From NCBI GenBank assembly GCA_900316955.1, contig ONEX01000005.1:1-64000 (forward strand): a stretch of DNA of 64,000 bases, written 5' to 3'. The position numbers and the translations under genes are program-made. Under the pieces are notes generated by a model. That model did no database searches, had not been told where the DNA came from, and worked only from the letters and a program-made list of their open reading frames with translations. The DNA comes from an uncultured Bacteroidales bacterium (lineage in GTDB: Bacteria > Bacteroidota > Bacteroidia > Bacteroidales > UBA932). This document shows, in pieces, positions 7,168 to 15,163 of the stretch (its first letter is position 1; every line of letters starts with the position of its first letter).

Positions 7168-7259
7168 CCCGTAGGTCCACTTGAGGGACCGATGGGGCAA
7201 CTTTTCGCCGTTTTTCCGCCCGTAGGTACCGAGCCTGGACCTACGGGCAAACCGGCTGG
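7168..7259 (+). repeat. 90-bp repeat unit A, copy 1
   Basis: Pairs with 7911-8001. I see a few substitutions and a 1-bp indel between the copies. Internal dyads are GGTCC/GGACC (7174-7190) and CCCGTAGGT (7219-7227) with ACCTACGGG (7239-7247). Confidence 0.85.
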
Positions 7260-7265
7260 GAAGCC

Positions 7266-7308
7266 TTGTCGCGCGGAGCATCGCGATGTGCCACTGAAGG
7301 GCGCGCAA
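7266..7308 (+). repeat. 43-bp repeat unit B, copy 1
   Basis: Starts TTGTCGCGCGGAGCATCGCG and ends GGGCGCGCAA. It is identical to 7769-7811 except for one base. A shorter degenerate relative lies at 7703-7730. Confidence 0.85.
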
Positions 7309-7478
7309 GCCGACCGGAAAGCCCTGTTGCGCTGGGAGCCCCGTCGCTGCCCGTCGCCAAACAGGCGCACAGGAAGCCCCTTCCTACGCTTTGTGTCTAT
7401 GGTTGCGGTGCGTAGAGCCTGCCCTCCCGTGCGGCATTTTGGCGAAAACCCATTTAGCTACCGGGAAGCACGATAGTT

Positions 7479-7663
7479 GGCGCAGGTGGTGTCGATTCTT
7501 GGCGCAGGTGTCTAGGGTGTTTGGCGCAGGTGTGGAAAATGGGTGGGGACCTGCGCCACTGGAGGGCGTAGGAGGCCGATTTGCGGTGCAGGTCCCCCTC
7601 CCAAAAACACACCTGCGCAAAGGAAGCCTGGGACCTGCGCCAAGGAAACCTGGGACCTGCGTG
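7479..7663. repeat. dyad-symmetric 9-mer array, copy 1
   Basis: Eight 9-mers. GGCGCAGGT starts at 7479, 7501 and 7523 (plus); ACCTGCGCC at 7549 (minus); GGTGCAGGT at 7585 (plus); minus-orientation copies start at 7611, 7633 and 7655, the last degenerate. Start-to-start spacings are 22, 22, 26, 36, 26, 22 and 22, and every pair is symmetric about position 7571. The third and fourth copies, and the fifth and sixth, could form 9-bp hairpins with 17-nt loops. The function is unknown. Confidence 0.9.
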
Positions 7664-7768
7664 GGGGTGCCGGGAATAGGAGCCCAGCCCCAACCCGAAA
7701 TTCGCGGAGCATGTCAATGTGCCCCTGAGGTCCCTGTACGGCCTAATCCGATGCTTCGCCAGCCAAAA

Positions 7769-7811
7769 TTGTCGCGCGGAGCATCGCGATGTGCCACTGA
7801 GGGGCGCGCAA
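7769..7811 (+). repeat. 43-bp repeat unit B, copy 2
   Basis: Second copy of the unit at 7266-7308 with a single substitution (GAGGGG instead of GAAGGG near the 3' end). Confidence 0.85.
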
Positions 7812-7910
7812 CGGGGGTGGTGATGCTCTGCGTTTTTCGGGTTGGGGGGTGTCGCCTTCGTGAGTGTGCCCGTAGGCCCCCGGCCCGGCCTGCCGCCTCG
7901 GCAAGAATTT

Positions 7911-8001
7911 CCGTAGGTCCACTTGAGGGACCGACGGGGCAACTTTTCGCCGTTTTTTCCGCCCGTAGGTACCGAGCCTGGACCTACGGGCAAGCCGGCT
8001 G
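7911..8001 (+). repeat. 90-bp repeat unit A, copy 2
   Basis: Second copy of 7168-7259 in the same orientation. It keeps the hairpin CCCGTAGGT (7962-7970) with ACCTACGGG (7982-7990) at the same internal spacing. A further CCCGTAGG lies just upstream at 7868. Confidence 0.85.
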
Positions 8002-8081: not shown

Positions 8082-8960
8082 ATGAGGGAAAACGAGAATA
8101 GCACGATTGGGGATCTGATGATCTGGGTGACGGTCCTGGGGGCGGGGACGTTCGCTTTGGAGGGCCTGTGTGTGCACTTCATCGGCAAGGACTGGTTGAA
8201 AATCGTCTTTTTCCTGCTTGGTGTGCTTGTCCTGATCCGGGAGTCTGTCGTCGAGTGGCGGAAGCCAGGCAAATCGGCCGGGGCGGCCAAGTCGGCCCAG
8301 GTCGATAATAAGTCGGCCCAGGTCGAAAGTAGGTCGGGCAAGGTTGATAGCCTCTCGGGCCAGGCCGATAGCCAGTCGGGCCGGGCCGTGGGGAAATTGA
8401 CCTGGGCGGAGGCGACGAAAGTTTGTTCGATGGCGTTGACTGTTTTCCCAATCGTTTTCCTGCCGGGCAGCAATACCAGCCCGCTGGGCAAGGCGCTTTT
8501 GCTGATCGCGTTCTTCCCGCTGATGGTCTACGGCCTGTACCGCAGCCGGCGCAAGGAGGAGGCGGAGGCCCGGAAGGAGGAGGAGCGGCTGCGGGCGCCG
8601 TTGGTGCTGCGGGATCAGGTGGCGCGCTCGGCCCGGAAGGTTTTCATCGTCTGTGCCCATGCCCGGGAGGTGGACCTGCATTTCGAGGTGGACGACCGGA
8701 TGTTCCTGTACAGCCTGCCCGACGGCCGTTTCTTGGTGCTGTTCCGGAAAGATGTCCCCCTGGATGCCTTCCTGGGTACATTGGCCGATTTCCGGACCGA
8801 GGTCGATGCCGATGAGGACGCCATCGGCTGCTACGGTCTTCCGCACGACGGCCCCCGGCCCGACCTGCCGCTGGTTTTCGTGTGCAACAAGGATATGGAG
8901 AGCCGTCCGTTCGAGTTCGATCCGTCGACAGTTCCCATTTCTGCGGCGGTTCCGGTGTAG
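8082..8960 (+). CDS. two-helix membrane protein with heptad repeats, unknown function
   Basis: A 292-aa protein. The ATG at 8082 is chosen because a TATATTTG promoter ends 4 bp upstream, which rules out the earlier in-frame codon. One pair of hydrophobic helices lies near residues 8-60. Five 7-residue repeats of the type KSAQVDN follow, and then a second hydrophobic pair (VCSMALTVFPIVFL and LLIAFFPLMVYGLY). After a charged RRKEEAEARKEEE stretch comes a soluble domain of about 110 residues. I do not recognise the family. The two-plus-two helices with a cytosolic tail suggest an inner-membrane protein, possibly sensing or regulatory. Confidence 0.7.
   Translation: MRENENSTIGDLMIWVTVLGAGTFALEGLCVHFIGKDWLKIVFFLLGVLVLIRESVVEWRKPGKSAGAAKSAQVDNKSAQVESRSGKVDSLSGQADSQSGRAVGKLTWAEATKVCSMALTVFPIVFLPGSNTSPLGKALLLIAFFPLMVYGLYRSRRKEEAEARKEEERLRAPLVLRDQVARSARKVFIVCAHAREVDLHFEVDDRMFLYSLPDGRFLVLFRKDVPLDAFLGTLADFRTEVDADEDAIGCYGLPHDGPRPDLPLVFVCNKDMESRPFEFDPSTVPISAAVPV
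8289..8393 (+). repeat. five 21-bp tandem repeats inside the membrane-protein gene
   Basis: Five in-frame 21-bp units starting at 8289, 8310, 8331, 8352 and 8373 encode the heptad repeats. The first two are almost identical in DNA, so copy number could change by slippage without a frameshift. Confidence 0.8.
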
Positions 8961-14010: not shown

Positions 14011-14688
14011 ATGAAAAAACTCTTTCTTGCAATTCGGCATAACGACCTTCAACAGGTCAAGGACATCATCAGCAAAAAACCGGATCTGGTTCATTGCACG
14101 GCCAAACAGCCGCCCAAGAAGGATGACGGGCAATCTCCTTTGCAGGTTGCTTTGAAGACGGGCAACTTCGATATTGCCGATTATTTGCTCGATATGGGGG
14201 CGGATCCCAATTTCATGGAATCGGAGAACTGCGTTTACAATGATTGGAGGGCGCCTGCGTTGCACGATGCCATCTGCGCCGCTGTTATGGAATCCAGATG
14301 GAGTGTGAAAAGAGGAGGATGGGGTGGTAAACCAGTCTATTATGAGGTAATGTCCAAACCTGAAGTAACCGAACACGCATACCGTGTTCTGGAAAGAATG
14401 ATTTCTTTAGGAGGCGATGTCAATAAGCTTGATTCGCTTGGAGATAATTCCATATGGCGATTCTTCATGGAGGCGCATCATATCATTCCCCGAGATGATG
14501 AAGACACAATCTATCAGTTTTCTGAGGAAGTGCACAGTGACCTTCTCAGAATCCTGAAACTTCTGAAATCTTCCGGAGCTCGCTTTGATGTCGTCAGACC
14601 GGATTTAGGCTGGACGGTAAAAGAGATGTTTAACAAAGGCGCCACTAAAATTCTTCTTGAAGAGATTACTGCCTGGAATGGAGATTAA
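14011..14688 (+). CDS. ankyrin-repeat protein
   Basis: A 225-aa cytoplasmic protein with no signal peptide. Ankyrin repeats are visible at residues 1-75 (AIRHNDLQQVKDIISKKPDL and SPLQVALKTGNFDIADYLLD, ending MGADPN) and less clearly around 85-190 (LGGDVNKLDSLGDN and SSGARFDV). Ankyrin repeats bind proteins; the partner is unknown. The gene is visibly A+T-richer than the enzyme genes on either side and is surrounded by repeats, consistent with acquired DNA. Its stop codon overlaps a 19-bp tandem duplication. Confidence 0.85.
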   Translation: MKKLFLAIRHNDLQQVKDIISKKPDLVHCTAKQPPKKDDGQSPLQVALKTGNFDIADYLLDMGADPNFMESENCVYNDWRAPALHDAICAAVMESRWSVKRGGWGGKPVYYEVMSKPEVTEHAYRVLERMISLGGDVNKLDSLGDNSIWRFFMEAHHIIPRDDEDTIYQFSEEVHSDLLRILKLLKSSGARFDVVRPDLGWTVKEMFNKGATKILLEEITAWNGD

Positions 14689-14724
14689 GGGTTAGGGATA
14701 ACGTCAAGGGTTAGGGATAACGTC
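14687..14724 (+). repeat. 19-bp tandem duplication
   Basis: AAGGGTTAGGGATAACGTC occurs twice head to tail (14687-14705 and 14706-14724), beginning inside the ankyrin gene's TAA. Confidence 0.9.
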
Positions 14725-15000: not shown

Positions 15001-15163
15001 GGCGCAGGTCCCCATACCTTTTGGCGCAGGTGAGGAAAAGAGGGCAGGACCTGCGCCACAGGAGCGCATGAGAGACGGATTCGTGGCGCAGGTCCCCCAT
15101 CAAAAAACACACCTGCGCCGAAAACCATCGACACCTGCGCCAAGAATAGGCAGGACCTGCGCC
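15001..15163. repeat. dyad-symmetric 9-mer array, copy 2
   Basis: Seven exact 9-mers: GGCGCAGGT starts at 15001, 15023 and 15085, and ACCTGCGCC at 15049, 15111, 15133 and 15155. Each spacing equals that of the array at 7501-7663, and only the outermost left copy is missing. The axis of symmetry is 15071. The central 27-nt spacer is partly conserved between the two arrays (GGAG and GATT), while the 13-nt spacers differ. Confidence 0.9.

Follow-up and report, generated by a model that had tools for sequence, protein, structure and literature searches.

The window analysed here, that is, the whole stretch of 64,000 nucleotides, harbors an array of eight 9-bp sites between two divergently oriented genes, whose expression it might affect as a side effect. 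A gene caller that we built on codon usage placed no gene between 6942 and 8118; the longest open frame of the left gene extends to 7062. Re-reading the sequence confirmed all eight site starts (7479, 7501, 7523 and 7585 on the plus strand; 7549, 7611, 7633 and 7655 on the minus strand), and both the mirrored orientation about position 7571 and the spacing 22-22-26-36-26-22-22 are exact. The array had been described as perfectly symmetric, which holds for its geometry but not for its sequence, as three of the eight sites carry mismatches. Five sites (7479, 7501, 7523, 7549 and 7633) are exact copies of GGCGCAGGT; those at 7585 (GGTGCAGGT) and 7611 (ACCTGCGCA) deviate from it by one mismatch each and that at 7655 (ACCTGCGTG) by two. 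The features at the locus and its second copy are the following.

7479..7663, unstranded: eight-site array, + + + - + - - -
7523..7619, unstranded: conserved four-site core (26-36-26)
7523..7557, plus strand: left inverted pair of the core, with 9-bp arms and a 17-nt middle with an A tract
7558..7584, unstranded: inner spacer of 27 nt; its orientation relative to the flanks varies, by eye, among the genome's five copies
7585..7619, plus strand: right inverted pair of the core, arms with one mismatch each, T tract read outside-in
7479..7522, plus strand: two outer 22-bp units, left
7633..7663, minus strand: two outer 22-bp units, right (7633 and 7655)
7459..7467, plus strand: left member of a near-direct 9-bp repeat, TACCGGGAA, at the junction with sequence common to the relative G003
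7668..7676, plus strand: right member of the near-direct repeat, TGCCGGGAA
15001..15163, unstranded: second window copy, seven exact sites, 22-26-36-26-22-22
7168..7247, unstranded: neighbouring family B repeat with a CCCGTAGGT core, 20-31-20, separate from the array
7910..7990, unstranded: family B repeat, second copy, 20-32-20

Absent from the initial annotation were the copy at 15001-15163, which has the spacing of the first array minus one outer unit, and two more repeat families beside the array. A 31-nt double pattern allowing up to two mismatches matched seven times in the window (four times in this array and three times in the second copy), whereas 100 dinucleotide shuffles averaged 0.02 matches. 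Scanning the 64-kb window with any 9-mer for the spacing 26-36-26 (each ±1) returned only this array and the copy at 15023, and the same scan of one plain 60-kb shuffle gave no match. Both window copies fold as single-stranded DNA far better than shuffles (z -7.4) and can adopt one long nested hairpin; this strong folding is expected because dyad symmetry alone gives it. Two other repeats were also seen in the window, a 19-bp tandem doublet at 14687-14724, just past an ORF at 14011-14688, and 21-bp repeats at 8289-8388 inside a 280-aa ORF at 8118-8960.

In the genome of origin (G000; 3.13 Mb, a draft of 38 contigs), a paired-pattern search returned 23 pairs, of which 22 collapse into five arrays, two on contig C15 (the window copies), one on C20 and two on C22; the remaining pair, on C12, is a stray match with two mismatches. 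All five arrays lie between called genes and have in common the core + 26 - 36 + 26 -; how many outer 22-bp units they carry varies. By eye, their 27-nt inner spacers resemble one another, those of the C20 copy and the first C22 copy being inverted relative to the A/T-tract flanks. The comparison behind this covers window 7558-7584 and the cores of L099 and L100; a length of 27 nt is very short for known inversion systems.

The layout recurs beyond this genome. The search of the genome and its relatives that the initial annotation had suggested, run with the paired pattern at up to two mismatches, matched 12 of 61 relatives, with runs of matches in G000, G005, G019, G023 and G028 and stray ones in the rest; relatives thus do keep the spacing, contrary to the outcome named in advance as speaking against the array. 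A core pattern with 24 bases fixed (at most three mismatches) was found in 46 of 400 genus genomes, with at least two cores in 31 and one in 15, and with up to 14 fixed-pattern cores per genome; a backwards-pattern control hit 4 of the 400 by our own count. Several species follow the grammar (+22)n + 26 - 36 + 26 - (22-)m; their words have drifted, for instance to GTCGCAGGT or GCCGCAGGT, and 26 is sometimes replaced by 25; in 2 of 20 stretches the regular expression used detected no run of sites. The four-site core (26-36-26) is the conserved part, and the outer 22-bp units vary in number. Arrays also grow through internal duplication: in L063 (G028:C67), from 2979 on, the inner part (-36+26-22-) of the array is repeated.

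Comparison of matching loci revealed arrays present in one genome and absent from another. G003, which has 84-93 percent DNA identity at the compared loci and is the closest of the 61 relatives at the C20 locus, aligns window positions 7420-7467 and 7668-7844 side by side with the array absent. At the junction, G000 has TACCGGGAA and TGCCGGGAA at the two ends and G003 a single TGCTGGGAA. Neither a core nor a close transposase (best 7.8e-26) was detected in G003. G318 and G240 match only the left-hand gene at the window locus, with no array match listed on those contigs. Since G003, G318 and G240 show no array there, the simplest view from these alignments is that the window array was gained in the G000 line. 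At C22, a transposase unit of ~3.15 kb is absent in G003, where 2 bp separate the flanks; loss in G003 is at least as likely here because G318 carries the transposase unit beside the same left-hand gene. G034 is without an array at the C20 locus, at 69-77 percent identity and with ends that cannot be placed, and no locus matching the second window copy was found in six relatives. The near-direct repeat around the window array resembled a target-site duplication, which we rejected as a rule: flanking direct repeats of at least 7 bp occur at 11 of 121 arrays with ~9 expected, no excess.

A transposase gene at G000:C22:67197-68135 has an array copy on each side, and three of the five G000 arrays stand away from it. 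Twenty fetched regions together with the window yielded 17 pairs of arrays on the same contig, with an intact transposase gene between them in ten, a fragment in one (G225) and none in six (the window pair, G240:C25, G093:C80, G411:C42, G411:C2 and G375:C3). G019 supplies an eleventh intact gene, with a single array in the stretch examined. The two arrays of G093:C80:53547-55680 (L105) lie 2.0 kb apart with no detectable transposase between them and may be what is left of a decayed unit. Among the matches listed, many loci of this branch have a ~151-aa ORF upstream of the transposase. G000 itself contains one intact transposase copy of this branch against five arrays. Besides it we noted a paralogue of the AAGGT subfamily with one internal stop (G000:C23:82683-83612; L149, L249), close to a 24-51-24 core of ACAAGGT sites, and three more Y1_Tnp homologues above the Pfam cut-off (C12:100994-101839, C36:84688-85260 and C35:276969-277532).

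The encoded proteins are 306-332 aa long, typically ~315 aa, in an 11-row alignment (A1), and have the motifs NHGH (10 of 11 rows; THCH in one) and Y[IV]P[RK]NA. The HxH and tyrosine residues (H68, H70 and Y128) are kept in all 80 relatives, the best 80 of 97 in named genomes. A second alignment (A2) comprises L099 and 57 of the 64 stop-free long rows among these 80, leaving out L169 (identical to L099) and six near-duplicates. Pfam Y1_Tnp (PF01797) is matched by 31 of 58 relatives, with a best E value of 1e-5, and not by the G000 protein itself, for which Pfam, NCBIfam, PHROGs and PDB sequence searches gave nothing usable; a PDB search with the 11-row profile found no meaningful match, and the plasmid and phage collections searched contained none at E 1e-5. 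Structure prediction (AF2) gave a pLDDT of 74 from 11 sequences and of 92 from 58. The best fold match of both models was PDB 4ER8, E. coli TnpA_REP with a REP hairpin (probability 1.00 and E 2.3e-3 for the 58-sequence model), in a Foldseek search in which no match reached E 0.001; IS200/IS605 transposases came next, with tRNA-His guanylyltransferases interspersed and a close ranking. The C-terminal part of the predicted model is helical. Weak MarR_2/HTH_29 matches, at 0.024 in the G000 search and at 0.0021 and 0.0041 in one member each of the 58 relatives, only hint at a C-terminal helix-turn-helix. By its catalytic residues and predicted fold, the linked protein is a divergent Y1/HUH transposase.

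The association of repeat and gene extends across the branch. Among the best-matching transposase loci, 30 in number, 28 contained a core of any 9-mer with the spacing 25-27/35-37/25-27, and 21 contained at least two; in L141 the cores are crowded to one side of the gene. By title, 77 of the best 80 relatives are Bacteroidales, Bacteroidia or Prevotellaceae, many from the ruminant stomach, and three are Fibrobacter or Lachnospiraceae. The transposase loci with the latter titles are on short contigs (Fibrobacter, L169, identical to the G000 protein, and L229; Lachnospiraceae, L244), which are probably mis-binned. A motif-free scan allowing up to two mismatches detected a core in 65 of the 80 loci, and a looser scan requiring GGT at the end of the first site in 74. 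In 73 of the 80 loci a core is found no further than 1600 bp upstream or 700 bp downstream from the gene, some contigs ending nearby: on both sides in 39 loci, upstream only in 20, downstream only in 14 and on neither side in 7. Other subfamilies use the words GGGGAAGGT, GGGCAAGGT, GATCAAGGT and GTACAAGGT, mostly with a longer inner spacer.

Repeat word and spacing track the transposase tree, which was of a quick kind with SH-aLRT values and no bootstraps. Short and long spacers require 4 changes on the tree of 70 labelled loci, against at least 16 in 200 shuffles, and 20 nine-mer states require 25 changes over 73 loci, against at least 46 in 200 shuffles. Removing duplicates, incomplete cores and cores with a first spacing other than 25 or 26 reduced 127 cores to 123. 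In their 492 sites, G1 (490), A6 (449), G7 (482), G8 (474) and T9 (474) are nearly constant and positions 2-5 variable; positions 7-9 are partly constant by construction, as the scan demanded GGT in the first site, and the motif-free scans also yield words with AGG almost throughout. In the genus, 35 of 400 genomes match the transposase at E ≤ 1e-135, and by eye at least two fixed-pattern cores occur in 18 of these 35, against 13 of the other 365. Twelve of the remaining 17 show, by eye, the 25-bp form, which the fixed pattern misses, and 13 of the 31 genus genomes with at least two arrays, many of them incomplete MAGs, have no transposase match at that threshold (by eye). A protein profile (E ≤ 0.001) matches 311 of the 400 sampled genus genomes. 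At the level of the order it matches 12 of 295 sampled genomes, two of this genus and ten weakly (≤ ~39 bits), so that outside the genus 10 of 293 sampled order genomes match, all weakly.

We consider it very probable that the array is a dispersed REPIN-like element of a RAYT/TnpA_REP-type Y1 transposase encoded elsewhere in G000. The best reading of such an element here is a non-autonomous one consisting of two inverted palindromes around a short spacer, with a RAYT of its own. This conclusion draws on the shared architecture, the two-copy flanking, the predicted fold, the tracking of the transposase tree and the presence and absence in relatives. Of the options first offered for the array, the transposable palindrome fits best: arrays of the family sit on either side of a Y1 transposase gene and have evolved along with it, and a near relative has no array at the corresponding site.

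The spacing of the 127 cores, a count that includes close relatives and is not of independent cases, falls into classes. The scan admitted first spacings of 14-40, yet 126 of the 127 cores have one of 25-27. For the inner spacing, 73 cores have 36-37, 45 have 46-49, five have 58, one has 68 and two have 80, and a single odd hit has the spacings 18-45, with 45 as its inner value; inner spacings of 38-44 and 50-57 do not occur among the 127. We rejected the values 80 (L178), 68 (L185) and 58 (L190) as clean spacers, since by eye further units lie between the palindromes, and a plain inner spacing of 58 was seen, by eye, only in L186, three times. The inner-spacer classes differ by 10-13 bp, which would match one turn of the helix. 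At 22 bp (±1), outer units accompany 47 of 52 GCAGGT-type short cores, 10 of 44 long cores and 1 of 19 other short cores, as well as 7 of 8 cores with D2 above 50; control steps of 11, 16, 28 and 33 in the 52 GCAGGT-type cores gave 1, 0, 0 and 2. The outer 22-bp units are probably mainly a feature of the GCAGGT branch. Over 134 variable positions, no hairpin-specific co-variation was detected: agreement was 0.43 for sites 2 and 4, which are not partners, and lower for the pairs 3-4 (0.33) and 2-3 (0.19), site-1 pairs having been left out of this comparison because the scan was anchored on site 1. That the outer units repeat the shared word, and that no partner-specific co-variation was seen, points to a protein as the reader of the word itself.

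These features would also suit a duplex-DNA nucleoprotein site of the operator or chromosome-organizing kind, bound by a transposase-derived protein or another factor and not itself mobile: all sites use one word in both orientations, the inner spacers of the 127 cores fall into discrete classes, the sites do not co-vary preferentially with their hairpin partners, and 22-bp outer units are found in 47 of 52 GCAGGT-type cores against 0-2 of 52 at the four control steps. We regard this alternative as unlikely, as copies are missing at matching sites of relatives and the linked protein keeps HxH and Tyr in 80 of 80. The multi-site protein assembly initially proposed survives as a possible recognition mode of the transposase, with one 9-mer in both orientations and spacer classes of 36-37, 46-49 and 58.

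Somewhat less credible is that the unit of array, small ORF, transposase and array is an ordinary insertion sequence and the dispersed arrays its solo ends. The presence of one intact branch copy in G000 against five arrays, and the fact that both flanking arrays are symmetric elements themselves, oppose this view, which would account for the two-sided flanking, the clean presence/absence difference of ~3.15 kb and the ~151-aa ORF that many loci have upstream of the gene. It is very improbable that the palindrome encodes a structured or regulatory RNA or a transcription terminator. The folding of the window copies as ssDNA (z -7.4), the point in its favor, follows from dyad symmetry alone; no Rfam match covers the array at gathering scores, the window scan giving only two tRNAs, and there is no hairpin-specific co-variation. 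The structured RNA of the initial annotation is hence not borne out by the Rfam search or by the 9-mers, which lack preferential co-variation with the hairpin partner. Chance or an assembly artefact, conceivable for a draft of 38 contigs, is refuted because the geometry recurs in both window copies, in all five copies of the genome and in many MAGs that were assembled separately.

For the REPIN-like element, we infer binding, cutting and movement by analogy with TnpA_REP and with REPIN excision. The transposase would bind GNNNNAGGT words, with their near-constant G and AGGT and subfamily-specific middle four bases, and would cut and rejoin the core as ssDNA, as E. coli TnpA_REP does with REPs; arrays would thereby be gained and lost in trans. 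The nested hairpin of the window copies would permit single-strand mobilization. The outer 22-bp units may give this protein additional half-sites to bind, which its C-terminal helical domain perhaps recognizes on duplex DNA.

More tentatively, and as a possibility that we would stop short of calling probable, this RAYT clade may have changed its recognition to a modular duplex word, G-NNNN-AGGT, on one helix face, in place of the GTAG-footed single-stranded hairpin. If so, the four middle bases would be a lineage-specific code, and the one-face layout would be expressed in the 22-bp outer units and in the inner spacer shifted by about one helical turn. The REPIN would then carry an expandable protein-assembly platform beside its cleavage core, and the genus would hold parallel, mutually insulated transposase-repeat pairs.

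The family B repeats of the window are also absent in G003. A single family-B-like palindrome lies ~1.1 kb upstream of a Y1_Tnp homologue just outside the window (G000:C15:68645-69496; Y1_Tnp E 0.0023, below the Pfam cut-off), so that the intergenic region of the array may hold elements of two RAYT systems. A fixed 20-31-20 family B pattern with up to three mismatches matched nothing in G000, and it missed the window copies because their second site is degenerate. Family C (TTGTCGCGCGGAGCATCGCGATGTGCCACTGAGGGGCGCGCAA) was noted at window positions 7266-7308, 7697-7739 and 7769-7811, two copies being near-identical and one at 60 percent; the two right-hand copies are within sequence common to G003.

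Among transposases that hosts keep with no clear benefit, RAYTs, with their REPINs, have been studied for a long time. The present family, from uncultured Bacteroidales, is a divergent, expanded RAYT branch concentrated in one genus and offers dozens of natural protein-repeat pairs. As their words differ mainly at four positions, the recognition code is directly testable, and so, with the same natural pairs, is duplex versus single-strand recognition. The family also accounts for repeats upstream of ordinary genes in these genomes.

With the IS200/IS605 family (IS608, ISDra2) the system has in common the HUH/Y1 fold and the lack of a general target duplication, which that family is not known to make; unlike IS200/IS605, it has arrays that occur on either side of the gene as well as by themselves. 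The initial annotation had known no described family with this layout. For the layout this still stands, none having turned up in the accessible portions of the open-licence PMC literature; for the kind of element it does not, as REPINs and RAYTs are described. In the excerpted text of Bertels and Rainey (2011, PMC3116915), REPINs are, as here, inverted palindrome doublets with a spacer, extragenic, dispersed and linked to a Y1 transposase; reads with the doublet excised are reported, and copies number hundreds per genome, compared with up to 14 fixed-pattern cores here. A Y1 HUH gene, flanking repeats, dispersed extragenic doublets and repeat-RAYT co-evolution, the marks of REPIN/RAYT systems, were all found in our family. 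What sets the element apart from described REPINs is its four 9-bp sites (GNNNNAGGT) around 17-nt middles, its outer units at 22 bp, the grouping of its inner spacers at 36-37, 46-49 and 58, and a protein of ~315 aa.

The biochemistry of RAYT/TnpA_REP considered here comes from Proteobacteria; according to the available passages of PMC8266576, E. coli TnpA_REP binds, cuts and joins REPs as single strands, and GTAG is essential in E. coli. A GTAG/GTGG foot is the hallmark of described REPs. The 5' GT[AG]G foot of canonical GTAG-class REPs was not found at the 492 sites of the 123 cores. E. coli TnpA_REP (group 2, REP/BIME, 4ER8) is nevertheless the best structural match and likewise has HxH plus Tyr; it measures 165 aa against ~315 aa here, so that, by length, nothing in it corresponds to the helical C-terminal half. 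TnpAY1 subclass 2.6 of Bacteroidetes, as characterized in the consulted sections of Quentin et al. (2018, PMC6006769), resembles our system in its phylum and in its flanking GTAG-less repeats ("atypical secondary structures") copied elsewhere in the genome. Membership in that subclass, for which those sections give a median of 179 aa and the motifs NH[LIV]H and YIH[QN]NP, was rejected: with ~315 aa, mostly NHGH, and Y[IV]P[RK]NA, the present proteins are set apart by motif and length. The element is of the REPIN/RAYT kind, distinct from both the canonical GTAG REP and subclass 2.6.
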